IMG/VR virus record: IMGVR_UViG_3300037343_000029
Coordinates: 1-41,752 of that record
Source of the DNA: a virus
DNA length: 41,752 nucleotides
Strand: one strand, 5' to 3'
Shown here: piece after piece, positions 4,944 through 41,499 of the stretch
Layout of the letters: every line of letters starts with the position of its first letter
How positions within the stretch are numbered: position 1 is the first letter of the stretch
Position numbers and translations under genes: made by a program
Notes under the pieces: generated by a model
The model's input: the letters and a program-made list of their open reading frames with translations, nothing else
Told to the model about the DNA's origin: nothing
Database searches by the model: none

Positions 4944-5785
4944 TATTCTGCGTATCCGTCGCACTGCTTGCAAGTACCGCCTACGTTGTTATTGCACTTA
5001 GGCTCTTGGTTCGTCTCCACTGCCTTAACAACCTTTTCAGCACCTTCAAACACATGGCGAACAATCTCGTAGTCACCTTTAATAGTGAACTCTTTGTAGT
5101 CTTGGTCTGCCTTCAGCTCATAAAGAAAAACAATCTCATCTAATTCGTGACCCATTCTCTTCATAAGCTCTAGGTACACCTGCCCCTGTAGGATGTGAGA
5201 GCGGAAAGGACGACGGACATTTCGCCATGCATCCATGAAGTCTTTAGCATCTGCAAACAGTGCTGGCTCTTCGGCTCTAATAGTTCCAGGCCCAACCGAC
5301 TTAATCTCAATCAAGCAGTCGTTACCCAGTCCTTTAATCCAGCCGTCAGTGTGTCCTTTAATACGTAGTTCTGGGTCTTCTAAAGTTACTTCAGCGTATG
5401 TTAAGTCAGTACTCTGGCAGTGCTCGCAGTTAGAGGGAGACGTCCCCCAAGTAATCTTCTTGCAGATTTGGCATGCGAACTTGCCGTGTAGTACACCCAT
5501 CTCTTGAAACCAAGTCTGCCACTTTGCGTGGATGGCATGGCCCTCGTCAAAGATTGACTGAAGGCGTAAGTTTGGCTTCTCGTAAATACGGTCATGACCA
5601 CGTAGTAGGAAGTAGCTGGCGCGACGGCACCAGTCTTTCTTTATCATGTCGGATGGGTGCAAAACTGTGTAGTCTCGGTCTCCTGCAGGACGAGAGAGCA
5701 GGTGGCGCTCTATATCTCCTACCAAACGACTCTTAGTTCTTTTAGCATCTAAAAACTTCTTTAAATCAGTCTGTGTTACTGACAT
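4943..5785 (-). CDS. Cas4/RecB-like PD-(D/E)XK exonuclease with Fe-S and Zn motifs
   Basis: 280 residues. The nuclease core shows Asp147 in GHTDGW, Glu160 and Lys162 in LIEIKS, and the QGQVYLEL (QxxxY) motif at about 200-207. Cys53 in DWCRR plus Cys264, Cys272 and Cys275 near the C-terminus form the four-Cys Fe-S pattern seen in Cas4 and AddB-type nucleases. A separate Zn knuckle (Cys105, Cys108, Cys120, Cys123) is inserted before the active site. The likely role is ssDNA end processing in recombination together with the RecA-like protein at 6671-7702. No CRISPR repeats or cas1/cas2 are present, so it is not evidence of CRISPR. Its start overlaps the WhiB gene by 20 bases. Confidence 0.88.
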   Translation of the reverse strand: MSVTQTDLKKFLDAKRTKSRLVGDIERHLLSRPAGDRDYTVLHPSDMIKKDWCRRASYFLLRGHDRIYEKPNLRLQSIFDEGHAIHAKWQTWFQEMGVLHGKFACQICKKITWGTSPSNCEHCQSTDLTYAEVTLEDPELRIKGHTDGWIKGLGNDCLIEIKSVGPGTIRAEEPALFADAKDFMDAWRNVRRPFRSHILQGQVYLELMKRMGHELDEIVFLYELKADQDYKEFTIKGDYEIVRHVFEGAEKVVKAVETNQEPKCNNNVGGTCKQCDGYAE

Positions 5786-6119
5786 TAGTTGCCCTCTCTC
5801 GTTCCTTAAAGATGTAATCCTTAAGGGTCATCTTACTCCTATATTGCTTTTGCCATTTTCGCACAAGAGCATTTCTCTCTCGGTGGGACATCCCTCCCCA
5901 TACTCCGTGCTGCTCATCTGTAGTTACTGCAAACCACAAGCAGTTTGCCCTTACTGGACAGGGAGATGTCCCTTTGGGGCCATTGCAGAAGACTTTTGCT
6001 TTAGCAGCAACCCTGTTATAAAGTGCCTTGTCCCTAGGTGGGTAGAATATCTCAGTGTCTGCACCTGCACAACGGGCATCGACTCTCCACGTATGGTCTA
6101 TACTTTCATCAAATATCAA
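5766..6119 (-). CDS. WhiB-family Fe-S transcription regulator
   Basis: 117 residues with the WhiB signature: four cysteines (Cys17, Cys45, Cys54, Cys60), the G-V-W-G-G turn at 72-76, and a basic C-terminal tail with RKWQKQYRSK. The family is a set of actinobacterial [4Fe-4S] regulators that bind the principal sigma factor. Phage WhiB proteins such as that of TM4 repress host whiB genes and can block superinfection. The second and third Cys are separated by eight residues here rather than the usual two. The start is assigned to TTG 6119 because no ATG or GTG lies upstream of the conserved core; no good ribosome site is seen, so the start is uncertain. Confidence 0.9.
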   Translation of the reverse strand: MIFDESIDHTWRVDARCAGADTEIFYPPRDKALYNRVAAKAKVFCNGPKGTSPCPVRANCLWFAVTTDEQHGVWGGMSHRERNALVRKWQKQYRSKMTLKDYIFKERERATNVSNTD

Positions 6120-6670: not shown

Positions 6671-7702
6671 CTAGATAATTGGGTCATTTACTGCTAGTAC
6701 CATACCACGAAGTTCTTCTATTAAGTCAACTTCTTCTCGAAGTGACGCAACGAAGGCCTCTTGTCCCTGCCACTTGCGCTCACCATAGTAAATCCATCCG
6801 CCACGGCGCTCGACAATATCTTTAACCATCACCATAGCAGCTACTTCTCTTGCAACATCGAAGTCACCTGCAAAGTTCATCCCTGTGTCTTGGAAGTAAA
6901 AGTCAACGTAAGCAACTCTCTGCGGTGGAGCAGTCTTGTTCTTTAGAATACGAATCTTAATACGCTGTCCTACACGGACTTTATTAGTACCTGTTCCTTC
7001 TTCAATCCATTCGTCACGACGGACTTCTGCACGAGTAAAGTACGCGTAGTCTTTGCCTTGACCTCCAGGAGTAGTGCGGGGGTCTCCATGCATTACACCA
7101 ATCTTCATGCGGTACTGGTTGATGATGATACCTAGAATAGGGCGCTCAGCCTCTATGAGAGAACGCTTCATAGCTGCGCCAGCTTTACGGAAGAACTTGT
7201 TGGTGATGAGAGCGCCACGTCCAACAGTCATCTCGTCCATGCTCTTCTCATCCTCTGGTCCTGGAACCAATGCGGGCAGAGAGTCGATGACAATACAGTC
7301 TATGGTCTTAGAAATTGCGAAGGCCAATACAGCGTCATACGCTTCTTCCATAATGTTTGTCTCAATGACAATCACTCGGCTAGTATCTACTCCACACATC
7401 TCAGCATAAGCTGGAACCCATTGCTCAGCTGCTACCCACACTGCAATAAACTCTGGGTTAGCCTTTTGATTAGCAGCAACAGTCTTTAGGGCAATAGCGG
7501 TCTTACCATGCGAAGGCTCTCCGACTAATTCATGCCATTGGTTAGCAGGGTAGCCTCCACCTAGTACATAGTCCAAAGTGGTAGAGCCTGTAGTAAATCT
7601 TTCCAAGAGGTCTGCACGGATGTCCTTGCCAATTACGACACTGCCATCTCCCAACTTCTTGTTAATCTGCGCCATAATCTTTAGCGCTTCTGCGTTAATC
7701 AA
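6671..7702 (-). CDS. RecA/UvsX-like recombinase
   Basis: 343 residues. Walker A is GEPSHGKT at 61-68, Walker B CIVIDSLPA at about 135-143, followed by a glycine-rich L1-like region and an INQYR segment, in RecA order. It should coat ssDNA and drive strand exchange in recombination-dependent replication and repair. The start is TTG 7702: AGGAGG lies 5 bases upstream and no ATG occurs until residue 10, inside the conserved N-terminus. The TTG overlaps the end of the 57-aa gene. Neighbouring nucleases and the RuvC-like resolvase fit one recombination module. Confidence 0.9.
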   Translation of the reverse strand: MINAEALKIMAQINKKLGDGSVVIGKDIRADLLERFTTGSTTLDYVLGGGYPANQWHELVGEPSHGKTAIALKTVAANQKANPEFIAVWVAAEQWVPAYAEMCGVDTSRVIVIETNIMEEAYDAVLAFAISKTIDCIVIDSLPALVPGPEDEKSMDEMTVGRGALITNKFFRKAGAAMKRSLIEAERPILGIIINQYRMKIGVMHGDPRTTPGGQGKDYAYFTRAEVRRDEWIEEGTGTNKVRVGQRIKIRILKNKTAPPQRVAYVDFYFQDTGMNFAGDFDVAREVAAMVMVKDIVERRGGWIYYGERKWQGQEAFVASLREEVDLIEELRGMVLAVNDPII

Positions 7703-12782: not shown

Positions 12783-14333
12783 CTAGATTAATTTGTCTGT
12801 TAGAAAGTTTATAAGACTTCCTACTGTTAAGTCAACTCCTCCTTTGGAGTTGATGCCTTCACCGTCAAGAATTGCCCCTGCGATGTTGGACTTCTGTTTT
12901 AGCGTATCATATTGTCTCTGCTCTATTGAACTTTGAATAAGAATGTCTTGAATCGTAATACTGGGCCATGTGCTGGATGCACGATTGATACGACCGTTGC
13001 GCTGAACTGCGAGTCCTGCTGACCATGGTTGGTCAAAATTGACGAGGAGGTTTGCTTGGGGAAGGTCAACACCGTAGCCTCCTGCGTCAGAGCTGACGAG
13101 GACTTTGACTTCTGGATTGGTTTGAAATTCAACTTTGGCACTTTCCTTCTCTTTTGCGTTTAGCTCTCCTGTATACCCTACCGCTCTGACATTTATAGAA
13201 GCTAAGGCAGAGACTATTTCGCTGACAGACTTTACGTAAGAAGCAAAGATGACTGCCTTGTAGCTTCCGTCAATGTCTAAGTGCTCTTTAATGTACTTTA
13301 TAGTGACGTCTAACTTTGGCTGCTTGGTGACAGCGAACACACTTTCTCCTAGAGAGTTTATAAAAGCACTTCCCCCTTCGTGCTCAGCAAACAGAGTAGA
13401 ACTGTGCTGTAATAACTTAGGGCTGGAGCACAGCATTCGTAGACATGTAATCCTGGACATTATTTGTCCCCGCAGTTCATTGGCAGGGTCTCCTGGCTCA
13501 TACATTTGGCCGTAGTGCACTGCAACGTTAAAGCTAGCCCCAAAGGCCTCTCTAGCATCTGCAAGCAAGGTAAGTAGGTCTCCTGCAATTGTGTTGTAAA
13601 GTAGCTGCCCCTTTGAATCTAGGGGCACAAGTATAGGTTGGCGGTATATAGCGTCAGGTAGATAAGGTTTTACATCTTCGTCTTTTTGACTTTTACGGAC
13701 AGAAGCCTTAGATAAAGTCTCATGTAGTACTTGAAGGTTTCTATATCTGTCTACCCCTCCGAAGTGATTGCGCACTATGAAGGTCTTGTCAAATAAGTCA
13801 AAACGTCCTAGAACAGTGCTATCTACAAATTGCATAATAGAATAAATTTCTTCTGGCCTCCCATTCTCAATAGGAGTTCCAGTTAAGGCAAATTTAATTG
13901 GTACTTTCTTGGCAAGGTCTTTGACCTTCTTAGCCCTCTTTGCCTTAAATCCCTTAATAGCAGTGGCTTCATCACAGACCATTGCGTCTATTTCAAACAA
14001 CTTCAATGTATCCCAGTCGTTTATAACTTGCTCGTAATTCATTATTACGTAGTCATAACTCAGAGCGTCTACGTATTGCTTTTCGCGTTGCTTGGGGGTT
14101 CCATCTATAACTATGGCCGTAGAGTCACTAAACTTCTCAATCTCTTTCTTCCATTGGTATTTTAAGCTGGAAAGACAGAGTACTAAGGTTAGCTTTGGGT
14201 CTAGTTCTTCTATGGCTGCAATGGTCATGGGGGTTTTTCCTAAACCCATTTCGTATGCAACAAGGATTCTCTGCTGAGAAACCATCTTCTCTACAGCATC
14301 TATTTGGTAAGGCTTAAGTGTTCCTATAAACAT
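12783..14333 (-). CDS. SNF2-type superfamily II helicase
   Basis: 516 residues from ATG 14333 (MFIGTLKPYQIDAVEKM) with GGAG 9 bases upstream; a TTG at 14348 gives five extra residues but has no ribosome site. Walker A GLGKT at 30-34, DEAT box at 121-124, TGTPIENG, and C-terminal motifs SSDAGGYGVDLPQA and QRNGRINRA define an SNF2-like DEAD/H ATPase. It likely moves along duplex DNA to remodel forks or protein-DNA complexes. It overlaps the end of the primase gene by 20 bases. Confidence 0.9.
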   Translation of the reverse strand: MFIGTLKPYQIDAVEKMVSQQRILVAYEMGLGKTPMTIAAIEELDPKLTLVLCLSSLKYQWKKEIEKFSDSTAIVIDGTPKQREKQYVDALSYDYVIMNYEQVINDWDTLKLFEIDAMVCDEATAIKGFKAKRAKKVKDLAKKVPIKFALTGTPIENGRPEEIYSIMQFVDSTVLGRFDLFDKTFIVRNHFGGVDRYRNLQVLHETLSKASVRKSQKDEDVKPYLPDAIYRQPILVPLDSKGQLLYNTIAGDLLTLLADAREAFGASFNVAVHYGQMYEPGDPANELRGQIMSRITCLRMLCSSPKLLQHSSTLFAEHEGGSAFINSLGESVFAVTKQPKLDVTIKYIKEHLDIDGSYKAVIFASYVKSVSEIVSALASINVRAVGYTGELNAKEKESAKVEFQTNPEVKVLVSSDAGGYGVDLPQANLLVNFDQPWSAGLAVQRNGRINRASSTWPSITIQDILIQSSIEQRQYDTLKQKSNIAGAILDGEGINSKGGVDLTVGSLINFLTDKLI

Positions 14334-15303
14334 AGGCTGGTTCTCCAATAAGGGCAGTCTTAGCGTTCTCGATGCCCCAAGAGATTTCTTCGTCAGTCAT
14401 ATCTCCTGGGTCTTTCTTAGTGCTGTCCCCGTAGTTAAAGAAGAATAGATTCATCCCGTACTTCCTGGCCCAGACTATCATCTGCTCAGAAGCCTTTTTC
14501 CCAGAAGCATCTAGGTTGGGATTATCAAACGCTGCAATAACTTTATTAGAGAACCTAAGTAGCTTAGCCTGTTCCTCTGACACTATTGCTCCAAAAGTAG
14601 CCACTGCGCCTCCGTAGCCAGCGGTGTAAATTCGCAGGCAATCAAGGGGTGACTCTACAACTATGGCTACATCTTCTAGCTGCTTACTGACTCCGAATAA
14701 AGTTTTAGACTTCTGCACTCCTGCAGGACGATTCTTAAAGGTACGGTCTAGGGTTCCTTTTTCTTGCCACCCCATGAGTTTGTTTCCGTCAGCTGTTCGT
14801 ATTGGAAGAATCCAAGTTGAAGTTCCGTGGTTCCAAACCACGCCATAGTGCTCTGCAGCTAAGTCGCTGACTCTTCTACTTTCTAATGCGTCAAAAGGAG
14901 GATAAACATAGATAGCTAAGCGAGCTTCCGACATTGGTAAAGGTCGCGGTGGAGGCATGATGTACTGAGGTAGCTTCCCAAAAGCATCTTTAAGCTCATC
15001 AATAGATATCTCGATTGCTGAGGCTAGCCACCCGTTTCCTGCAGAGTAGTCATACTGCTGGCGAGATTCTCCCCATAAAGTTACGTAGAACTCTTTAATG
15101 TCACAGACTAACTGGACTAAGTTTCCTTTATACCCACAGGAGAAACAGATGTGCTGCCCAGTCTCCATGTGAATAAACCAAGAAGGATTGTTATCTGGCT
15201 CCCCTGTAACACGCTCATGCATTGGGCAGATTGCTTGGGAGTTATCCCCCTTTTCGTCATACTCAATGCCTAGTGCTTGTAGTGCTCTAGTTACTCTGCT
15301 CAT
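14314..15303 (-). CDS. DNA primase (CHC2 zinc finger and TOPRIM)
   Basis: 329 residues from ATG 15303, which forms TAATG with the helicase stop; the 333-aa version starts inside that gene. A Zn finger (Cys26, His29, Cys53, Cys56) is followed by a linker domain, then a TOPRIM domain with VVESPLDCLR (about 214) and AFDNPNLD (about 257). It makes RNA primers for the polymerase. Primase and helicase are separate genes, unlike T7 gp4. The start is coupled to the DnaB-like helicase. Confidence 0.9.
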   Translation of the reverse strand: MSRVTRALQALGIEYDEKGDNSQAICPMHERVTGEPDNNPSWFIHMETGQHICFSCGYKGNLVQLVCDIKEFYVTLWGESRQQYDYSAGNGWLASAIEISIDELKDAFGKLPQYIMPPPRPLPMSEARLAIYVYPPFDALESRRVSDLAAEHYGVVWNHGTSTWILPIRTADGNKLMGWQEKGTLDRTFKNRPAGVQKSKTLFGVSKQLEDVAIVVESPLDCLRIYTAGYGGAVATFGAIVSEEQAKLLRFSNKVIAAFDNPNLDASGKKASEQMIVWARKYGMNLFFFNYGDSTKKDPGDMTDEEISWGIENAKTALIGEPAYVYRNT

Positions 15304-16559
15304 TACATGCCCCAAGGTGTGGAGCAGAACTTACAAGTTCCGTCACGCTTCTCTGATTCGTCATGGAAGCAACCTTTATCCCATAGCCATGTAATAGAGG
15401 TTTCTGCAGGTCCTGAGTTACGAGACTGAACAACTCTTAGCATGCGTACTTCGTCGTCTTCTTCTACAGGCTCTAAGCCTAGAATAACGTCTGAGTCTTG
15501 GAAGAAGGAAGAAGAGTAACCGATAGAGTCTGCAGAAACTTTTCCGCCTTTCATTTTCCACAGCAAGGTCTGGGTAGTGATAATGACAGGAATGTCTAGC
15601 TTTTGTGCAACACGCTTGAGTCCGCGAGTAATGTTAGTCAGTGCTTGTGGCGTGTTTGCTTCTCCAGTGACTTGGTCTAGCATCAAGTACACACCGTCAA
15701 CAAAGAGGATGTCTGGCTTTAGCTGTTCTGCCTTAGCAACTAGCGAGTCAATGGTCAGTCCGTTGATAGCGTCAACCATGTGAAAAGGTTGCATCGTCTT
15801 TAGGTCTTCAATCATCTCTAGGTAGCGGTCTTCTTCTGCCCCAGTAAGTTTTCCACGGCGCAAGTTTGACGCAGACAGGTGAGCACGCATAGCGTCATGT
15901 CGGAGAGCTTGCTCTCGGTTGTTCATCTCAAAGGACTGGTACATAGGAACGTAGCCTGCTTGGTGAGTGTTAATTGCTACCTTCAAGCTAATCTGTGACT
16001 TACCAGTCTTAGGTGGAGCAATCACGGTGATTAACTGCCCTCCCTGTAATCCAGCAGTAGCTTCGTCAATCTTTTCAAACCCAGTAGGGATTCCAAGTAG
16101 CTTCTTATTCTGAAGTCCCTCGTACTGAACAAACCTTGCATCAGGGTCTTTAGTGAGGTCTAGGTGAGTAGTTCCAATAACACCTTGAGCATTAACCATG
16201 GTGATGGTCTTGCTCATTTCGGTGAGAGCAGACTCGTGGTTATTTTCGCCCATCTCCCCAAGGACTAACTCAATACCATTTCTGGTAAGTCGGTTCCTGC
16301 GGAACTGAACCATCTTGTCAATCAGGTAGTCAAGAGTGTCTTCTACCTTTACCGCTTTAAAGTTAGGGAAGTTGTCTGTAACAGCAATGATGGTAGGCAC
16401 TTCGCTGTAGAGGCTGTAGTGCTCTCGAACGAAGGTCCACACACGACGAAGGTCGTCGTCTACAATCCAGTCGTCTTTAATCCCGTTTTCAATAACAGGA
16501 ATGATGATGCGGTCGTCAATAACTTTGCTGACGAGTCTGTACTCGTTGTCGTATGCCAT
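15303..16559 (-). CDS. DnaB-like replicative helicase
   Basis: 418 residues. N-terminal helical domain (about 1-120), then a RecA-type ATPase with Walker A APPKTGKS (about 181-188), a SFEMNNREQ segment, Walker B ILFVDGVYLM and IPVIITTQTLL. The C-terminus has CKFC preceded by a Cys/His-containing stretch. An AGGAGG ribosome site lies upstream of the ATG. It should unwind DNA at the fork and be loaded by the AAA+ protein at 17290-18015. Confidence 0.9.
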   Translation of the reverse strand: MAYDNEYRLVSKVIDDRIIIPVIENGIKDDWIVDDDLRRVWTFVREHYSLYSEVPTIIAVTDNFPNFKAVKVEDTLDYLIDKMVQFRRNRLTRNGIELVLGEMGENNHESALTEMSKTITMVNAQGVIGTTHLDLTKDPDARFVQYEGLQNKKLLGIPTGFEKIDEATAGLQGGQLITVIAPPKTGKSQISLKVAINTHQAGYVPMYQSFEMNNREQALRHDAMRAHLSASNLRRGKLTGAEEDRYLEMIEDLKTMQPFHMVDAINGLTIDSLVAKAEQLKPDILFVDGVYLMLDQVTGEANTPQALTNITRGLKRVAQKLDIPVIITTQTLLWKMKGGKVSADSIGYSSSFFQDSDVILGLEPVEEDDEVRMLRVVQSRNSGPAETSITWLWDKGCFHDESEKRDGTCKFCSTPWGM

Positions 16560-16988: not shown

Positions 16989-17293
16989 TAGAGGATTTCT
17001 ACTTTTCCATATTTAATAACAAAGTCTCTAAAAGCAGCAGAGTCTTCCATGGCGATGCTTGCTTCCATAGGGTCAATCTCTGCATGAATGTGTACGGTGT
17101 AGTGACCATCATTACTCTGCATAGTCTGACGTACAAACTTAGTGTGAGCACACTTCGAGACTTTCCTAAAAATCTTGCAGGTGCACATTATTGCGTAGGG
17201 GTCATTGTGGTCAGCTGAAACCTCAGAGACACCGTCGTCTCCTAAGAACAGTTGAATAGTTCTCCAGTCGTATGCCATGCGAGCGCCTTTCAC
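16988..17293 (-). CDS. SWIM-like zinc finger protein
   Basis: 101 residues from GTG 17293 with AGGAGG 5 bases upstream and a GTGA overlap with the loader stop; an ATG at 17278 has a weaker site. CTCKIFRKVSKCAH at about residues 37-50 matches the SWIM pattern C-x-C-x(n)-C-x-H. Beta-rich HYTVHIHAEID follows, and a helical FRDFVIKYGK end. SWIM fingers bind DNA or proteins; here it may act with the helicase loader upstream. Specific role unknown. Confidence 0.72.
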   Translation of the reverse strand: MKGARMAYDWRTIQLFLGDDGVSEVSADHNDPYAIMCTCKIFRKVSKCAHTKFVRQTMQSNDGHYTVHIHAEIDPMEASIAMEDSAAFRDFVIKYGKVEIL

Positions 17294-18015
17294 TTGTTCC
17301 TCCTCAAGTCCTTACCGCCTATTATTACACGATTGAAGGCTTCGTACACGAACGAACCCATAGCTTCCCCGTATTTTGCTTTCCACTGGTCTCGCTCCAA
17401 GTTGGTAGTCACAATCGTGGGCAACCCTTTATCATAACGGGAGCGGAGAAGCTCATCAAAGCCAGCTACGTTGTAGTCGGACTTTAGCTCTTTACCTAAG
17501 TCATCCAAGATAAGGATGCGAACGTTTAGGTAGTCATGCTTTGAGCGCCCATGAAACCCATCCATGTACATCTGAAGTTCACGGCGAGTGTCATTGTCTG
17601 CCGAGATTTCATTCTTCTTGCGATTGATAAAGTCTGGTACGGTCATGTAGTAAACAGGACGGGAGGCAGCCGTGTAGTCGATAGCTGAATAGTTAAAGAC
17701 TTTGCGAGCTTTCTCAGCATCCTCTGGGAGCTTGCGAATCAACTCTGAGATTGTAAGCACCGAGTGGGTTGTCTTTCCCATTCCTGGGTCTCCGTCAAAT
17801 AGGAGTCCGACACCTGTGACCCCAAGGCCACCAATGCTCTTGATTACTTTTCCAGCTAGAACTAAATCTACCCAATCTTCAATCTCAGGGTAAGAACTAC
17901 CTAGGTTGCCCTGCACATCTTCTGCCCCCATACCAATGAAACGGTGTGGAATGTTAGATGTGTTCATAAGCCAACGTGCTTTTAAAAAACTAAGGCGGTT
18001 AATGTCATACGGCAT
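17290..18015 (-). CDS. AAA+ helicase loader (DnaC/lambda P role)
   Basis: 241 residues. Walker A GDPGMGKTTHS at about 76-86, Walker B VRILILDDLGKE at about 165-176, and a sensor region TIVTTNLERDQW, in the DnaC/IstB-type AAA+ order. It probably loads the DnaB-like helicase onto the origin opened by the initiator encoded just upstream (11-base overlap). The pair corresponds in role to lambda O and P, though lambda P itself is not AAA+. Confidence 0.88.
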   Translation of the reverse strand: MPYDINRLSFLKARWLMNTSNIPHRFIGMGAEDVQGNLGSSYPEIEDWVDLVLAGKVIKSIGGLGVTGVGLLFDGDPGMGKTTHSVLTISELIRKLPEDAEKARKVFNYSAIDYTAASRPVYYMTVPDFINRKKNEISADNDTRRELQMYMDGFHGRSKHDYLNVRILILDDLGKELKSDYNVAGFDELLRSRYDKGLPTIVTTNLERDQWKAKYGEAMGSFVYEAFNRVIIGGKDLRRNK

Positions 18016-19075
18016 TTGAACTCCTCAATTTATCCTCGTATCGCTCCATGGAGGCCCTACCTGGCATGGAGTTGTCGAAACGACGCCCATCAGAAGCATA
18101 CACAAAATCGTCGGTTGGTGTTGAATTATCTGCAAGTTCGGCAGGAGTTTGTCTGGCATCCATGCTCAAGTTCTTTAAAGCCTGCTCAAAGTTAATGCTG
18201 AAAGCCTTGAGAAAACGGCCAATAATCCAGTGTGGGTTCTTGCGACCCTCGTTGTCAATCCATGAATCTTCAAAGAACATCTCCATGATTTCAAGCTCAA
18301 TCAAGGGATTGACATCCTCGTTCTTGCGTTGTCTGGCAAGGGCTCCAGCGATGTTCTTTACGCTGAGTTGCAAGGGCATTACTGGCATTCTTGCACGCAC
18401 CTTGGCTACAAATTCTGTAGCTACATCAACCGTAGTCCACTCAGAATGAGGGCGGTCAGCCCTAGTCTGTGGGTTGTTCTTGCTTATCTTTGGGCCTTTG
18501 ACCTTCTGAGCCGCTTCATTATCAAATAAACCAAAACCGCCAACGCTGTCATCGTCATCTCCTTGCCACCGATTCACCACTTTTATATTCTCCTTTTTAA
18601 TGACCATCGGGGCCTTGGCCCCGAATAAATAAGACGTAGTCTTATTTACTATATCCTTACCAGAACTACTAGTACTACTAGTACCAGCTGTTGACCCCAC
18701 ATTTTTGTGGATGACACCAACCTCATTTTTGTGGATGGCAGGATTCTCATCCACATTTTTGTGGACGGCAGCTTCCATGTTTTCATGGTCAAAACTCGTC
18801 TCATCCACATTTTTGTGGGATGGTGAAACGAGCTCATATTTGTTTTTATGAAGTCTCCCGAGGTTTCTTTTTGTCCTCGTAGTAACGACCAGTTCTGCTT
18901 GCTCTAGCTTCCTCAGGGAACGCCGAATTGACTCTTCAGACGACTGGGCAAAGCGAGCTAGCTCCTCCATGGAGATGTCCGTTTTATTTTTTATAGACAG
19001 CGTGCAAAGGATGTCAAGCAGACGATACTCGCTAGCTGATAACGGGGTAAAACACTTCTCTTCAAACGTACACAT
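18005..19075 (-). CDS. Replication initiator, lambda O-like layout, with internal HKN repeats
   Basis: 356 residues. N-terminal winged helix-turn-helix (about 1-85: LSASEYRLLDILCTLS, ISMEELARFAQSSEESIRRSLRKLE). A linker at about 85-165 carries repeated HKNVDE-type peptides (SHKNVDE, VHKNVDE, IHKNEVG, IHKNVGS) encoded by iteron DNA. The C-terminal helical domain (about 205-320) could contact the loader or helicase. The gene sits directly before the AAA+ loader, as lambda O precedes P. The protein likely binds the repeats in its own gene to start replication. The initiator role is inferred from architecture, and sequence similarity to lambda O is not claimed. Confidence 0.75.
   Translation of the reverse strand: MCTFEEKCFTPLSASEYRLLDILCTLSIKNKTDISMEELARFAQSSEESIRRSLRKLEQAELVVTTRTKRNLGRLHKNKYELVSPSHKNVDETSFDHENMEAAVHKNVDENPAIHKNEVGVIHKNVGSTAGTSSTSSSGKDIVNKTTSYLFGAKAPMVIKKENIKVVNRWQGDDDDSVGGFGLFDNEAAQKVKGPKISKNNPQTRADRPHSEWTTVDVATEFVAKVRARMPVMPLQLSVKNIAGALARQRKNEDVNPLIELEIMEMFFEDSWIDNEGRKNPHWIIGRFLKAFSINFEQALKNLSMDARQTPAELADNSTPTDDFVYASDGRRFDNSMPGRASMERYEDKLRSSNAV
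18607..18648. repeat. Two adjacent palindromes in the putative origin
   Basis: TCGGGGCC-TT-GGCCCCGA at 18607-18624 is a perfect 8-bp arm palindrome. TAAATAAGAC (18626-18635) and GTCTTATTTA (18639-18648) form 10-bp arms around GTA. One is GC-rich and one AT-rich, separated by one base. Both are within the linker-coding part of the initiator gene. Confidence 0.8.
18696..18818. repeat. Five iterons with CCACA-TTTT-TGTGG symmetry
   Basis: Copies of CCACATTTTTGTGG occur at 18697-18710, 18751-18764 and 18805-18818, with a variant (CCTCATTTTTGTGG) at 18721-18734 and a symmetric variant CCATGTTTTCATGG at 18775-18788. The right ends are spaced 24, 30, 24 and 30 bases. The repeats encode HKN(V) peptides on the minus strand. 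The inverted arms around an A/T core are like lambda O iterons but with a different sequence. Confidence 0.88.
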
Positions 19076-19086
19076 AGGTGAACATC

Positions 19087-19350
19087 TTACCGCCTTCTGA
19101 GAGAGTCAACGACGACAGGCCGAGAAGTTACAGAAAGTACCACGAGAGCAAAAAATCCCGAGGCGAAGGTCGCGACGACCAAATGGTAATCCAAGAGCCC
19201 AAGAAGTCCGTTGGCAGTCAAGGAAAAAGGTAGAGTAAGAATAGTCTTAAGAATAGAGTCTGGTAGCCAGCGCCCTATTATCAAGCTGAGGAATGCGATT
19301 GCGCCACCAGTGGCCATGCCAGAAATGACTATAGTTAGAAAGAGGTCCAT
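19087..19350 (-). CDS. Small membrane protein, holin candidate
   Basis: 87 residues with three likely membrane helices (about 3-25, 34-52 and 55-76) and a basic tail ending SLRRR. Size and topology fit a holin, and it lies at the junction between tail and replication genes, where some actinophages keep lysis genes. However, no endolysin gene is adjacent, so holin function is not supported beyond topology. The gene has no recognised family motif. Confidence 0.7.
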   Translation of the reverse strand: MDLFLTIVISGMATGGAIAFLSLIIGRWLPDSILKTILTLPFSLTANGLLGLLDYHLVVATFASGFFALVVLSVTSRPVVVDSLRRR

Positions 19351-19359
19351 GACCTCATC

Positions 19360-21615
19360 TTACATGGTGATTGCTTTTGTCTCTACTCCACCGAACGAAC
19401 GAACTACATATGGGGTGTTAGAAGGCAAGAAATTCTCTAGCTCTTGAATCAGTCTAATAATCTTGGCTTGTTTACTCTTGTATAGATGTGAGGGGGAGTT
19501 ATTCTCTAGTTCTTCCCACACAATCCCATACTCTGCTGGAAAGTTTCCTGCAATGTAAAGGCTGGCAGCAAAGTTGGATTCTAGTTGCGCTGCTTCAAAG
19601 TTAAGAGTTCCACCAGTATTGGCGTCTGCTTTAATCTCTAGGTTGAAAAACATACTTTCAGACACATACTTAGACTCGACGTAGAAAGAAAGGGTTAGCC
19701 TCTTCCAAGTAGTGCTGACCGCCACAGGAGTTGACTGCTTTATCAAAGAAGGATTAACGCTATCAATCAAGGTGATTTTTAAGTAAACATCTTCTTCTCG
19801 AACAGGACTCTGTACGTACACAGAGAAAGTATAAAACTTCCCAGAAGGCATCCCCCCTGTATTAGTAGACGTACTAACTGTAAGGTTCTGCCCACTAGTC
19901 GGCTCTACCGACAGCATGCTATCTGCCGTAAATATATAAGGGAGCGTACTCGCGGGATAAGTCGAGGAGGATGCGTTAGCCACATTCCAGTCTGTGGTGA
20001 TAGCCGAGAGAGAAGGGTCATTTACAAAATTACTCTTGTCGGGCTGCAAAAAGATGTCCACGCTGCGAGATTCGTAGTAGCTAGTTACCTCTGACTTTGC
20101 AAACTGGAGCATGTCAAAGTAGACCGTTCCTGGCCCCTCAAACTTTATCTCTGTAGAAGCGTAGGCCGCACTCTCCACAGACACAAGGGCATTAGTTTCA
20201 GTGGCTGTTACATCTGGAGTTATTAACACATATGTGATTGTATTAGAGGTAGTAGCAGACACCAAGTACTTACCGTCATAAGGGGCACCAATTCCAATAA
20301 TAGTAATTGGAGTCCCAGGATTAACGGTGTGAGTGACTTCTGTAGTTAGAACAACCTGATTAGAAGTTACTGAGTAGTTTGTAACTGAGTAGTCTGTTCC
20401 TGGCGCAGTTCCCACAAGAGAGTACTTGTTCCAACTCACAGTGGTAGTCTGAGGAGAAGCAGTAGTGCTGCCTACTAATCCACCAGCGTTATTATACCAG
20501 TAAATTTTAGGTACTATAGACACGCTATTAGCCGCAGTTCTTTGAGCAAAAACACTAAACCTGTACTCCACACCAGCTGTTACGGGTATCCCGTATAGTA
20601 CTGGGTTATCTTCGCCGTTTCTTAAAAAAGAGTTACTTGAAGTAGCTACGGCTTTTGCCGTATAGACAGCGTCAATCTGAAAGTCCTCACCGCTAGGTGG
20701 AAGGATTGTGTCCTGAAGTTCTAGTGTGCAGTTTCCCACAGCTCTCCACCTACCAAGGCTTTCATAAAAAGTGCTGTCTTGCGAGGTAAGAAAAAGGTTA
20801 GGGGTGTTTGTGATTACTGGCCCAAAGCCAGTAAGACTTTCTATCAACGTACTTAAAGCTGCTTTAGTGCCTTTGCGAGAGTACATGTAGATGGCTTCAC
20901 GAACCATCTTCTTCTGCTGAATGATTACATCATCGGATGCGGGGGTAATCCCGTACTCATAGACTTGAAGGTCTAATATTTCTGGGCTAGAGTTTCTTCC
21001 AGTAAAGTCTGGAATCAATAAATCTGCAAAAGTAAGTAGCTCGTCAAGAGTAAATGAGAAAGCCTGAAGAAACTTGTAAAGGTCTGAGTCTGTGTCTACA
21101 ACTCCTAAAGGCGACTGCTCTTTTGAAGTAAACACTCTTGGAAGCATGCTCATAAAATTTTCATGAGTAGTGGCGAGCACTTGGCCGTCAGAAGTTACTG
21201 TTCCATGTTGTTTAGGAAGAAGGATTACTAAATCATCAGCTACGCTCCAGAGATTGTTTGCAGAGCGCCTTACCCACATGCGGTAGTAAACAAACCTGCC
21301 AGGAACTAGTCCTATGTCATTAGATAAGTCTTCATCCGCAAAGTTGTCTACACCGTCTGTAAAGAAGGAGTCTCCAAAGTTACCATCTTCGCTGTTAACT
21401 TCAAATAAAATAACACCATCGTCAGGCCATTCGGGAAACCCGTTTTGGTTTCTGACTAACCTAAGTCCGTTCAAAGCCCCCTGAGGAGGGCCCCAATATA
21501 GCTCAATCTTGTCGTAGTCAACTGCCACACCCTGGAAGGGTTCAACCGAAAAAGGTAACCGAGGTATCTCACCGTAGTAAGCGCCCCTGTATACAAAACC
21601 ACCGTATTTACCCAA
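19360..21615 (-). CDS. gpI-like baseplate protein with C-terminal adhesive domains
   Basis: 751 residues. The region about 155-275 (MLPRVFTSKEQSPLG, LYKFLQAFSFTLDELL, DLQVYEYGI, MVREAIYMYSRKGTKAALSTLIES) matches the phage tail protein I family that caps the baseplate wedge and holds fibres. About 285-530 and 545-690 look like beta-sandwich carbohydrate-binding modules (two GKFYTFSVY/YRFSVFA type repeats). It is the last gene of the baseplate module. Likely role: wedge component that also binds host surface sugars. Confidence 0.78.
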   Translation of the reverse strand: MGKYGGFVYRGAYYGEIPRLPFSVEPFQGVAVDYDKIELYWGPPQGALNGLRLVRNQNGFPEWPDDGVILFEVNSEDGNFGDSFFTDGVDNFADEDLSNDIGLVPGRFVYYRMWVRRSANNLWSVADDLVILLPKQHGTVTSDGQVLATTHENFMSMLPRVFTSKEQSPLGVVDTDSDLYKFLQAFSFTLDELLTFADLLIPDFTGRNSSPEILDLQVYEYGITPASDDVIIQQKKMVREAIYMYSRKGTKAALSTLIESLTGFGPVITNTPNLFLTSQDSTFYESLGRWRAVGNCTLELQDTILPPSGEDFQIDAVYTAKAVATSSNSFLRNGEDNPVLYGIPVTAGVEYRFSVFAQRTAANSVSIVPKIYWYNNAGGLVGSTTASPQTTTVSWNKYSLVGTAPGTDYSVTNYSVTSNQVVLTTEVTHTVNPGTPITIIGIGAPYDGKYLVSATTSNTITYVLITPDVTATETNALVSVESAAYASTEIKFEGPGTVYFDMLQFAKSEVTSYYESRSVDIFLQPDKSNFVNDPSLSAITTDWNVANASSSTYPASTLPYIFTADSMLSVEPTSGQNLTVSTSTNTGGMPSGKFYTFSVYVQSPVREEDVYLKITLIDSVNPSLIKQSTPVAVSTTWKRLTLSFYVESKYVSESMFFNLEIKADANTGGTLNFEAAQLESNFAASLYIAGNFPAEYGIVWEELENNSPSHLYKSKQAKIIRLIQELENFLPSNTPYVVRSFGGVETKAITM

Positions 21616-21628
21616 GAGTTAGCTCCTA

Positions 21629-21934
21629 TTAAGAAAAGTCAGCTTGAATAGCAAACCATGAAAAAGTAATGGATTCACTACCAGTGCCTTTTAGGTTAGC
21701 TGTAAAGCCAGTAGTGTCAACCTGAACGGTCACAGTGGCGTGATTTGTACCCGTCACCTGAACAAACACTAGCGGAGTAAATGAAAACTCAAAGCCGAAA
21801 CTGACACCTAAAGTTCTGGCCCCCGTAATTAGTGAAGTGCTCTGACTACCAGAAGCGTCAACTACTGAAGGTACTTGAGCGCCAATCTCCTGCCAAACCG
21901 AGCCGTCCCACACACGAATTCTTTTATAAGCCAT
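21629..21934 (-). CDS. Small tail protein with H-type lectin-like domain
   Basis: 101 residues beginning MAYKRIRVWDGSVWQEI. From about 40 to 101 it is beta-rich (GVSFGFEFSFTPLVFVQV, ATVTVQVDTTGF, SITFSWFAIQ), resembling the H-type lectin fold that occurs in phage fibres, including the final hydrophobic FSWFAIQ strand. It may form trimers that bind glycans. It lies between a fibre-like gene and the gpI-like gene. Confidence 0.65.
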   Translation of the reverse strand: MAYKRIRVWDGSVWQEIGAQVPSVVDASGSQSTSLITGARTLGVSFGFEFSFTPLVFVQVTGTNHATVTVQVDTTGFTANLKGTGSESITFSWFAIQADFS

Positions 21935-21944
21935 TATTTATCTC

Positions 21945-22727
21945 CTAGATGTACTGCAGCCAGACATCTCCATTTGCACCATCACTTGAAGTGGGGGCAC
22001 TGGTAGATGCGTTAACACGACGAAAGCCCATTGTTCCGACAGGAACAGAGGGGTCACTGGAAAGAAGAAGAGAACTTGCATCAAAGGGGTCCACATTTTG
22101 AGAAGAGTCTACCCAGATAGTTCCTGGGATGACTCCAATAGGGGCAGTGGCTTGATAAAATACTGTTGGCCGAGCCTCAACGAACTCTTGGATGTCAGTA
22201 CTGCCAGCTACAACTACTGAAGAAGGTGAAATGTTAACTAGAGTATTATTGAGCCCACTAATAGTTTTATTAGTAAAAGTATCTGTAGAAGAGACGCTTG
22301 GAACGTCCGCGGTGTTTAGCTGAAGCTTTCCAGAGCTATTAATGCGAGTAATAACTGAGCTGGCCGAGTTCTGAGCCTGAAACAAATCTGCTGTTTGATT
22401 AGTACGTGCACGAAGAGCCAAGTTAACAGTGCTAGTGCCAGCTGGGGTAACTACTGTTCCACCAGAAGCTTTTACTCTGTCGTTAAACGCCTCAAACAAA
22501 CCAAACTCAATGTTTTGAATTCGCTCACGAAGTGACGGCCAGGTCAGAGTGGACTGATTAAAACTTCCACTAGTCCAACCTACGTTTATTACTACCTGAG
22601 CTCCAAGAACTGTCTGCACGGAAGTAATCTCGTCGTATACCTGATTAATATCTGCAGCCAAAACAATATCAAGAAGGTCTCTCTTACGAGTAAACGTCTT
22701 GATAGATGATGGATAGGATGCGGGCAT
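21945..22727 (-). CDS. Tail fibre or baseplate-attached structural protein
   Basis: 260 residues. The N-terminus (TFTRKRDLLDIVLAADINQV, then YDEITSVQTVLG) is a pattern common at the start of actinophage and cyanophage fibre genes and likely anchors to the baseplate. The remainder is Ser/Thr/Asn-rich beta structure with TNKTISGLNNT, typical of elongated fibres. AGGAG lies 6 bases before the ATG. Position after the spike gene supports a tail role. Confidence 0.72.
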   Translation of the reverse strand: MPASYPSSIKTFTRKRDLLDIVLAADINQVYDEITSVQTVLGAQVVINVGWTSGSFNQSTLTWPSLRERIQNIEFGLFEAFNDRVKASGGTVVTPAGTSTVNLALRARTNQTADLFQAQNSASSVITRINSSGKLQLNTADVPSVSSTDTFTNKTISGLNNTLVNISPSSVVVAGSTDIQEFVEARPTVFYQATAPIGVIPGTIWVDSSQNVDPFDASSLLLSSDPSVPVGTMGFRRVNASTSAPTSSDGANGDVWLQYI

Positions 22728-22761
22728 TACAATCTCCTAAAGTATGTCTCTATTGTCTCTG

Positions 22762-23223
22762 TTATGCGCCATTTTGTAAGGCTAAGGGCATGTCTGCTTC
22801 TAGCTGCGCAATGCGGGCCTCAAAGTCCACAAGTACTTCAGCCATGTAGACCAAGGTAGCTACTAAGTCCAGCTCTTTTCTTCCATCAGAGAAGGAAGAG
22901 AACTGCAAACCCTCTTGTGAGGACGTGGTTGGCTTAATAAGGGTGTGCTTTTCAGCATTGACAACTTTTCCAAATACGCCTACCCATAAAGGGTATGATG
23001 GGTCACCACTTTCAAACATTACCCAGACTCCTTGCCCTACTGCAGGAGAAGCCGCTTTAACGCTAGCTGACTCCATAGGCCATGCCCATTGGGTAGGGAC
23101 TTTCCCCAGAATCGCAGGCACAGAGACCCTTATGCGGCGTTTACTCAAGGGGTCCTTGTTGCTAACAACTGTGCCTCTGTAGATGCCGTGGTGTTTAGTC
23201 AGCTCCCCAACTGAATTACCCAT
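22762..23223 (-). CDS. Baseplate spike protein, gpV/gp5-like OB domain
   Basis: 153 residues. HHGIYRGTVVSNKDPLSKRRIRV and later QGVWVMFESGDPSYPLWVG are the OB-fold signatures of tail spike/VgrG-type proteins. A C-terminal helix follows (LVYMAEVLVDFEARIAQLEADM). It should form the central puncturing spike together with the hub. Its ATG forms TAATG with the J-like gene upstream. Confidence 0.85.
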   Translation of the reverse strand: MGNSVGELTKHHGIYRGTVVSNKDPLSKRRIRVSVPAILGKVPTQWAWPMESASVKAASPAVGQGVWVMFESGDPSYPLWVGVFGKVVNAEKHTLIKPTTSSQEGLQFSSFSDGRKELDLVATLVYMAEVLVDFEARIAQLEADMPLALQNGA

Positions 23224-25100
23224 TACGCACTCCGTATAACATCAATGCTATAGGTTTTAGTCGTAAGACCCTCTGCAGCTGTAATAAAGATACTTACAGG
23301 AGTAGTCCCAACAGAAGTATTGACCGTTATAGTGGCACCTGATGCAGTAACAGTGTCATTAATTCTCATAATAGAGCCTGCACTAGACGTGGTTGCTGTA
23401 AGCACGGTGCTGACTGTGCCGTTAGGAACCGACAGAGTGTATGCAGACTGATTACCATTAAATCCAGGAGAAAGAGTTCCAACCGAGAAAGTCATAGACT
23501 GCAAAGTAGCGTTAGTAGAAAAGGCAGTTACAACAATGTCGTCCGACAAAGCAACAAACAGTTCATTAGGCTGGGCAATCAGTATGTTTCGCCCACTAGT
23601 GCTGCCAGCCCTATACACCGCTGTAACACGAGCATTTATAATTCCTGGTATCTGTCTAATAACGGCTTCAATTTCTTCAGGATGAATAATCGCCCCAAAT
23701 CCAATGTTTACGTAAGCGAACTCGTCCAACAATGCTTTAAGGATTACTGTGTCTAATAGTCCTTCGGAGTATTGGTCAAACTTGCTGTAGAACAGCTCAA
23801 TAACCACAGGAACGTAGGTTGGAGGGGAAACTGTTACTGAAGTGCCAATTTGGATTTTGTCTTCAAAATAAGAAACAACTTCTTCCTTAATGCCGTTCCA
23901 TTCAGGAAGAAGAACCCCCCCATCTGCAGGGTTGTCACTGTATCCAGGGAATTGGTCAACTGAGACCTCGTTTCGCTGAGGGGAAACGTAAACAGTGACT
24001 GAAGTACGAGTAGCTCCAACCGCTTTCGCTTTACCCACGTCCGCAACTTGCAGTGCAAGAGCGCTATAGTCATTTAGAGACACTGCTCGGTTAAGAGCCG
24101 TTAGTGCTAGTGGGGCCTTTTCCTTAATACTTTCATTACTTTCAGGGACTTCTCCCCCAATACCTGCAGTTGTATTAGTAAGAGTAAGAGTTGTGCTTAA
24201 ATTAAATACGTCAGTATCTGACAACCCAGGTACTTTAAATAACTCTGTAATTAAGTTGACAGCAATGTTCCCAACGGAACCACCACCAAAATGGTAAGAA
24301 GCTTTGATAACCGATAACTGATTAGGTATTGCCCCAGATACACCGTCTCCAAATTGGACGGTAACAAAGTCGTCAGCGTCTGTAATAACGGAGAAAACCG
24401 AATCAAATGGACCAAAGTCAGTTAAGTGGAGCACCTGGGTCCAGGGCTCAAAGATATCTCCATTTTGTACAAAAATACGGACAGAGCCATCTACTACTTG
24501 ATTTTCTAATAGACGGTATGACTGTTCAGGAAACCCATTAGAAACTGCAAGAAGCTCCCCCGCGATATCTTCTTCCCCACCAGAGGCATTTTCAGGCCTA
24601 TCAGCAACCTCTTCGTAATTCTTTGCCGTCGCCGTTGCTACACCTGGGTTTTGCGAAACAGAAGCAGGAACGGTAAGTGAATCTTCTAGTGTCCAGATTA
24701 AATCGAAGGTAATATCCCCTGAGTTAATAGTCGCAATAAGCTGAGTCCCGCTGGGCAAAACTACCGCACTCTCAGCTTCGTTAATAAACTGTACAGTTGC
24801 AGTAGCTGCCCGAAACCCCGTAGGAACGTATCCGTAGTTACGCGAAAGATTTAGAATAGATTGTCTCTGGGTGGCCGTGGCTAAAAAGCCTTCATTTGCT
24901 ACACGGTCAATGTAGTAGCTAACAACATCGCCCATGTAGGCGAAGGCCTCCACCATAACCACGCCGAAGTCTGCACCACTATCCCCCGTCCAACCTGGGA
25001 GAACCGTCTTAATACGAGTAATAAGGTCGCTACGTAACGAGTAGAAGTCTCGTGAGGTATAATCAATCGTAACTGGAATTTGGTTTACTGGAGTTGCCAT
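23223..25100 (-). CDS. Baseplate J-like wedge protein (T4 gp6 type)
   Basis: 625 residues. The N-terminus YTSRDFYSLRSDLITRI, and DSGADFGVVMVEAFAYMGDVVSYY, are hallmarks of the baseplate J family. The middle contains the usual AVGATRTSVTVYV and FEDKIQIGTSVTV segments, and the end has an extra domain (about 530-625) with a cadherin-like beta sandwich (TVSTVLTATTS). It forms the wedge scaffold that triggers sheath contraction. It overlaps the gp25-like gene by 16 bases. Confidence 0.88.
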   Translation of the reverse strand: MATPVNQIPVTIDYTSRDFYSLRSDLITRIKTVLPGWTGDSGADFGVVMVEAFAYMGDVVSYYIDRVANEGFLATATQRQSILNLSRNYGYVPTGFRAATATVQFINEAESAVVLPSGTQLIATINSGDITFDLIWTLEDSLTVPASVSQNPGVATATAKNYEEVADRPENASGGEEDIAGELLAVSNGFPEQSYRLLENQVVDGSVRIFVQNGDIFEPWTQVLHLTDFGPFDSVFSVITDADDFVTVQFGDGVSGAIPNQLSVIKASYHFGGGSVGNIAVNLITELFKVPGLSDTDVFNLSTTLTLTNTTAGIGGEVPESNESIKEKAPLALTALNRAVSLNDYSALALQVADVGKAKAVGATRTSVTVYVSPQRNEVSVDQFPGYSDNPADGGVLLPEWNGIKEEVVSYFEDKIQIGTSVTVSPPTYVPVVIELFYSKFDQYSEGLLDTVILKALLDEFAYVNIGFGAIIHPEEIEAVIRQIPGIINARVTAVYRAGSTSGRNILIAQPNELFVALSDDIVVTAFSTNATLQSMTFSVGTLSPGFNGNQSAYTLSVPNGTVSTVLTATTSSAGSIMRINDTVTASGATITVNTSVGTTPVSIFITAAEGLTTKTYSIDVIRSA

Positions 25101-40867: not shown

Positions 40868-41499
40868 TTTAGTTCCTTAACCCAGAGATGAATGTCTCCT
40901 ACTTGACCTAGAGTAACGTTTCCTGCGGCAGATGAACGCCCAAAGATTCTGTAGGTAACTGTTGTTCCAGAAGCTAGGCCGTGAGTATCAATGACGCTAA
41001 GAGTAAGGGCCTGAGAAGGGTCTACATAGTTCTCATATACATCGACAGAGGTAGAGCCGTCAAACCTAACAATCTTTACGTAGGAGTTATTGTTACCTGT
41101 ATTAATGGCGTACCCATTAAACGCAATCTCACATGCAGAAGAAGTCGTAGTAACTATTTGTGCTTCTAACGCAACAGCTCCTGAAGTAGTGAATTGAAGG
41201 TAAGCGCTACCCACAACAGTGTGAGTAGTTCCTGACTCATAAACATCGTACTCAGGTATTCCGTTATCCCAAGCGGTGTCGTAGTCAGTACCGCTGGCTT
41301 TTACGATAATTTGCCCAGCAGTTCCTCCAGTTGGGAACCCTGTTGGGCCAGTAGGTCCTAAAGGTCCTTCAGGTCCAGTCGGACCTAGGACTAGTGCTGT
41401 TTCTACAGTGTTCCATACAGCCCCTGTCCATACCCAAGTTCGGCTACCTGAAGTAAACTCCTCATCTAGTGCAGGAGAGTTAGGAAAATCTATAGCCAT
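40864..41499 (-). CDS. Tail fibre protein with collagen-like repeat
   Basis: 211 residues. N-terminal SGSRTWVWTGAVWNTV (about 17-32) is a fibre-anchor pattern; residues 39-53 are five Gly-Pro-x triplets, a short collagen-like stalk; then TAGQIIVKASGTDYDTAW, and a beta-rich head domain (about 80-211). Such proteins form trimers on tails. The gene overlaps the 57-aa Zn-ribbon start. Confidence 0.82.
   Translation of the reverse strand: MAIDFPNSPALDEEFTSGSRTWVWTGAVWNTVETALVLGPTGPEGPLGPTGPTGFPTGGTAGQIIVKASGTDYDTAWDNGIPEYDVYESGTTHTVVGSAYLQFTTSGAVALEAQIVTTTSSACEIAFNGYAINTGNNNSYVKIVRFDGSTSVDVYENYVDPSQALTLSVIDTHGLASGTTVTYRIFGRSSAAGNVTLGQVGDIHLWVKELN

Follow-up and report, generated by a model that had tools for sequence, protein, structure and literature searches.

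Does the gene for a phage replication initiator also contain the origin at which that initiator would act? The question is raised by the window analysed here, an entire virus record of 41,752 bp, in which inverted repeats (iterons) lie within the gene for a winged helix-turn-helix (wHTH) protein. A first-pass annotation of this DNA had proposed an origin module analogous to that formed by genes O and P of lambda, and we followed up this proposal by comparing the window with its relatives.

Results

Replication genes of the window and its relatives

The window contains genes for a tail sheath, a tail tube and a baseplate wedge as well as a gene for a WhiB-like transcription factor (5766-6119; Pfam, E 1.8e-17). 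Therefore, it is a fair inference that the phage is an actinobacterial myophage, as annotated previously, with the tail genes indicating a myophage and the WhiB gene suggesting the host. The genes relevant to replication, and the parts of the initiator gene that encode its DNA-binding domain, are the following:

14314-15315, minus strand: DnaG-like primase (phrog_47, E 1.9e-31; Toprim; Zn ribbon)
15303-16559, minus strand: DnaB-like replicative helicase (phrog_19, E 1.9e-53; DnaB_C, E 9.2e-27)
17290-18015, minus strand: DnaC-like AAA+ helicase loader (phrog_50, E 2.5e-26)
18005-19075, minus strand: initiator gene, 356 aa, with wHTH, disordered linker and helical C-terminal domain (ORF, AF2 model, alignment of 47 sequences)
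18830-19045, minus strand: winged-HTH domain, residues 11-82 (HTH_Crp_2 profile and model)
18914-18940, minus strand: recognition helix, residues 46-54, the predicted reader of the dyad arms (peak of helix-arm co-variation)

The AAA+ loader gene that had been noted after the iteron-bearing gene is confirmed as DnaC-like by its phrog_50 match; in the window, loader and helicase are separated by two small genes. Using the helicase as the query, we identified relatives at 80 loci with 62-100% identity, among which the recurrent gene order is small gene, initiator, loader and helicase. L002 appears to be spurious as a relative. The family set used below consists of 47 initiator genes, i.e. the window and 46 relatives.

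Pfam wHTH matches were weak for the window initiator and better for its relatives; HTH_Crp_2 matches 32 of the 47 members with a best E of 2e-8. The AF2 model is confident for residues 11-66, and its pLDDT is ~90 for residues 11-60, <50 for residues 99-184 and mostly ~80-96 for residues 201-310. In total, these observations uphold the annotation of a winged-HTH protein. The CRP-type HTH score of the window protein is 21.1 bits, which is below the curated cut-off of 27, and an effector domain was not matched. Two initiator/Rep entries, 4pt7 and 5kbj, were returned by a fold search together with many other wHTH proteins, and no entry had E <0.001. The lambda O family was neither matched by the window protein in Pfam nor present among the families listed for the 47 members; similarly, neither the window protein nor the 47 members had a Pfam match to the RepA_N domain.

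Dyads in the linker-coding part of the gene

The dyads of the window sit in the linker-coding part of the wHTH gene, which is encoded on the minus strand:

18803-18820, no strand: iteron 1 (18-bp frame), exact CCACA-N4-TGTGG core
18774-18791, no strand: divergent dyad with CATG arms, of uncertain membership in the array
18749-18766, no strand: iteron 2, exact core
18719-18736, no strand: iteron 3, a single arm base broken
18695-18712, no strand: last iteron, with counterparts throughout the 47 initiator genes
18685-18694, minus strand: TCAACAGCTG, a conserved motif immediately following the last iteron (family comparison; ATCAACAGC is kept in the noncoding spacers of L050 and L079)

Exact CCACAAAAATGTGG dyads are present at 18697-18710, 18751-18764 and 18805-18818, and a fourth copy, CCACAAAAATGAGG, at 18721-18734 has one broken base. 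Hence, four of the five CCACA/TGTGG iterons annotated previously stand; the arms of the fifth dyad (CATGAAAACATG, 18776-18787) differ from those of the other four. Elsewhere in the window, there is no exact CCACA-N4-TGTGG and a single site with one mismatch, at 41211. With exact 5-bp arms, 4 dyads were observed compared to 0.65 when the peptide was recoded with synonymous codons, and 2 of 5000 recodings reached the observed count. Alternative settings gave weak results for the window alone (359/5000 for exact 6-bp arms and 2212/5000 for 7-bp arms with one mismatch) and, therefore, the case rests on the family.

The count of a 54-bp unit differs between near-identical phages (18745-18818 of the window versus 5720-5760 of L001). 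L001, which is the nearest relative, lacks one 54-bp stretch flanked by matching repeats; thus, the array varies in length, which suggests that it may change via recombination between repeats.

In the family, the site was defined as the 18 bases preceding a TCAACA-like conserved motif, with the anchor set by pattern and six offsets placed by eye. An 18-bp site with 6-bp arms and a 6-bp spacer is found at the same place in the 47 initiator genes. The arm sequence varies by clade and falls into many classes. Within genomes, arm pairing was 0.758 compared to 0.454 +/- 0.031 when right arms were swapped between genomes (0/5000). Moreover, 31 of the 47 linkers contain extra copies of their own site, compared to 9% for foreign sites. 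Relative to synonymous recodings, the family has more extra copies (36 versus 16.0 +/- 2.5) and better paired dyads (4.55 of 6 pairs versus 2.77 +/- 0.13). Genome-wide, full-match sites concentrate in the initiator gene, with one further full match across 10 genomes.

The first-pass annotation had named the absence of iterons from close relatives that keep the wHTH protein as evidence against an origin; most such relatives keep the sites at the same place with an altered sequence. Nine relatives have the wHTH without a full dyad here, either with poor pairing (L048, L049, L074, L080 and L021) or with a split gene (L050, L076, L077 and L079), and these mostly keep the right half-site. A search with one half-site pattern returned no full dyad in L048, L049, L050, L074, L076 or L080; in L079, the half-site pattern had one match, at 6703, outside the gene.

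Co-variation of recognition helix and arms

We correlated 8-residue windows of the wHTH domain with right-arm distance, given C-domain distance, in the 47 sequences. The recognition helix had the highest partial correlation of all domain windows (0.61; median 0.16; all 47). For 33 representatives, given helicase and loader distance, the peak window reached 0.667 and the median window 0.142, and the fixed helix window reached 0.656 for the right arm compared to a permutation maximum of 0.321; for the left arm, this fixed window gave 0.405. At the helix position that corresponds to E47 of the window, R occurs with C at site position 17 (38/38) and E, A or T with G (9/9). A tree-aware test of this R/C rule gave three supported independent contrasts (five in all), all of which were concordant (sign test, p 0.25). 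Because the arms co-vary with the recognition helix, we read the initiator as binding these sites, and binding of the dyads by its wHTH domain is strongly inferred. Co-variation of this kind is indicative of binding, and an operator would show it likewise.

AT-rich tract and hairpins

Downstream of the last iteron, the gene contains the following elements:

18624-18684, no strand: AT-rich tract, candidate unwinding region, overlapping hairpin 1 (lowest-GC 60-mer class; AT-biased codons in relatives)
18626-18648, no strand: hairpin 1, 10-bp stem and 3-nt loop, TAC on the gene strand and GTA on the other
18607-18624, no strand: hairpin 2, GC-rich, 7-bp stem
18590-18595, minus strand: Shine-Dalgarno-like AAGGAG ahead of a possible internal start (sequence; pattern in relatives)
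18575-18580, minus strand: GTG GTG, where the C-terminal domain may have an internal start (the C-terminal ORF of L050 and L079 starts at the matching place)

Both the AT-rich DNA beside the iterons and the palindromes after them had been annotated correctly: the 60-mer at 18624 has 28% GC, with fewer than 1 in 2000 of the 60-mers in the window being lower, and the palindromes correspond to the two hairpins. Across relatives, the stretch from the last dyad to hairpin 1 has a mean of 32% GC, and codon choice in this spacer is far from that in the rest of the gene, e.g. AGT is used for 50 of 92 Ser compared to 53 of 609.

Of 49 spacers in the family, 37 contain hairpin 1, whose stem is 9-14 bp long, and all 28 distinct sequences have 9 perfect pairs, at least 7 having been required for inclusion. 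After recoding, the mean stem decreased from 9.80 to 2.22 for hairpin 1 and from 5.20 to 2.96 for hairpin 2. Of 12 near-complete genomes, 10 have a single copy of hairpin 1, in each case in the initiator region, and two (G009 and G012) have none. Folding predictions give both hairpins on either strand, in the window segment as well as in L050. The pattern of the internal start was seen in 44 of 44 sequences by lenient criteria applied without a null model. Of all parts of the module, the conserved pair of hairpins is explained least well.

Relatives with a split or reduced initiator gene

ATCAACAGC, both hairpins, an SD-like sequence and the C-terminal ORF are all retained in L050 and L079, in which the wHTH is followed by a stop and the spacer does not code for protein; the same motif (ATCAACAGC) and the hairpins are also seen in L076 and L077. 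In L018, the C-terminal ORF (5019-5546) lies directly behind the upstream gene, with no wHTH, dyads or hairpins in between. In L023 and L081, the initiator match begins at query residue 167, near the upstream gene (ORF table and alignment), and tblastn did not detect wHTH domains in G012, the contig of L081. Because genomes of the L081 type have neither hairpin 1 nor a detectable wHTH, replication must start otherwise there.

Skew and DnaA-type elements

Raw skew shifts at the initiator gene in most genomes, and in the window (19000-25000) plus-strand AT skew flips sign near this gene. At 4-fold sites in relatives, AT skew has no step and GC skew changes gradually without a sharp step; because the AT step is missing, the raw change probably reflects gene content. 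Thus, the skew check proposed in the first-pass annotation provides no usable support once amino-acid composition is removed. DnaA-trio-like CTA repeats were considered and rejected: the spacers contain 99 CTA and 76 TAG among 1996 trinucleotides, which is little strand polarity and more simply read as AT-richness combined with ACT/AGT codons.

Discussion

With sites that are kept in place and co-vary with the recognition helix, the comparative evidence makes it very likely that the segment is a phage replication origin embedded in the gene of its own initiator and bound by that initiator. It would be of the O/P type that was originally proposed, lambda-like in its working yet not lambda's. 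In the suggested mechanism, the 18-bp dyads of the linker-coding part would be occupied by dimers of the wHTH domain, a binding for which co-variation argues strongly. The gene neighbourhood and precedents suggest that the assembled initiator complex would then melt the adjoining AT-rich tract and that the C-terminal domain would help to place the DnaC-like loader, together with the DnaB-like helicase of the phage, on the opened strands. More speculatively, the two hairpins past the AT-rich tract could be DNA-level origin elements, perhaps strand-specific loading or priming signals. A tentative extension, which we regard as rather doubtful, is an origin type composed of dyads, AT-rich tract and a fixed hairpin pair in which hairpin 1 (a C-GNA-G triloop on the non-gene strand, present once per genome) would serve the phage primase or helicase loading as a strand-specific signal; if true, one short coding segment would hold binding, melting and priming signals.

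The dyads might instead be an autoregulatory operator at which the wHTH protein controls transcription of its own operon, with the origin elsewhere. Co-variation with the recognition helix would suit any specific binding, and most CRP- and MarR-like wHTH domains have regulatory roles. However, the sites lie ~250 bases into the gene, promoter-like matches in this region are at chance level (2 versus 2.1 expected; 0 on the gene strand), full-match sites dispersed among other genes are missing from 9 of 10 genomes, and an operator leaves the AT-rich tract and the single-copy hairpin unexplained; we consider it unlikely. Recruitment of host DnaA by the CCACA arms is highly improbable. The actinobacterial DnaA box consensus is (T/C)(T/C)(A/G)TCCACA, and the five YYVTCCACA matches between 18706 and 18809 are striking in the window, but they are clade-specific: in relatives the arms become TGTTTC, TGCCTC, GTAAC, GTGTC and others, and the dyad stays.

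That dyads and hairpins act in RNA, e.g. on internal translation of the C-terminal domain, would fit the position of hairpin 2, which in the window and in split relatives lies shortly upstream of a start codon with its SD-like sequence. Such a role is quite unlikely given that hairpin 1 has no G-T among 252 pair cells (perfect pairing had been required of pairs 1-7 but not of pairs 8-9), that the iteron arms track a DNA-reading helix, that the C-terminal ORF of L018 has a start with no hairpins before it, and that no Rfam match was found. Selection on HKNVDE-like linker repeats as protein would account for copies that are in frame with a recurring peptide; however, the copies are more numerous and the dyads better than in synonymous recodings, the linker is predicted to be disordered, and the neighbouring elements are kept when untranslated, so that this explanation, too, is very improbable.

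An origin within the initiator gene has several precedents, of which lambda is one. With their 6-bp arms and 6-bp spacer, the family dyads resemble CRP-type sites, relative to which their register appears shifted by one base; the DNA-binding domain itself has weak, repeated profile similarity to CRP/FNR and MarR wHTH domains. The window initiator differs from CRP/FNR proteins in its lack of an effector domain match and in sites that are embedded in its gene. In lambda and Stx phages, the origin lies in the middle of gene O, the iterons are imperfect inverted repeats of ~19 bp, an AT-rich tract adjoins, and gene P, which encodes a replication protein, is part of the region; related phages differ in the number of iterons, with in-frame changes of the protein (PMC7466680). 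The window module shares inverted-repeat iterons in the initiator gene, probably bound by its product, an adjacent AT-rich tract and a loader gene directly downstream. As annotated previously, sequences and loader type differ from lambda: the initiator has no Pfam lambda O match and the loader is a DnaC-like AAA+ protein. Moreover, the window phage encodes a DnaB-like helicase and a primase of its own, and it has the conserved hairpin pair.

In SPP1, oriL lies in gene 38, with repeats and an AT-rich unwinding region within the initiator gene, and gp39 is the loader and gp40 the helicase (PMC6316719). The window phage similarly encodes initiator, loader and DnaB-like helicase, with the candidate origin in the initiator gene. 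By contrast, the SPP1 sites are described as direct repeats and SPP1 relies on host DnaG (PMC6316719), whereas the window has dyads and a primase gene; no sequence relation to SPP1 was found in the searches made (initiator tblastn against 50,697 phage records). In pSK41-type RepA_N plasmids, an N-terminal wHTH binds boxes that are central in the rep gene, in the part coding for a dispensable linker (PMC5703833). The window gene has the same arrangement of N-terminal wHTH and central sites in linker-coding DNA, but its product has no Pfam RepA_N match. Thus, both SPP1 oriL and the pSK41 RepA_N plasmids share the plan. In a study of mycobacteriophage RepA, the origin was suggested to lie within repA or immediately upstream of it (PMC7157519).

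No description of this module was found in the literature searched, which was a limited collection. The segment is very probably an origin of a known kind, traced here in a family whose initiator gave no tblastn match at E 0.01 when 50,697 phage records were searched. A probable origin is thereby located to within ~250 bp for a phage family that is known here from metagenome-derived contigs alone. A single DNA segment would encode protein and at the same time provide the binding array, the melting region and the hairpin pair, and relatives with a noncoding spacer still hold the motif and hairpins. The recognition-helix residues and site bases of dozens of initiators form a natural table that makes initiator specificity directly testable. 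Finally, a distant relative with 26% identity (L154, 3953-4600) lies on a contig of a MAG labelled Microbacteriaceae, which is a lead to the host; it has a dyad-like GCTC-N6-GAGC, the motif TCCACAGCTGA and the hairpin AATACTTCGTATT.
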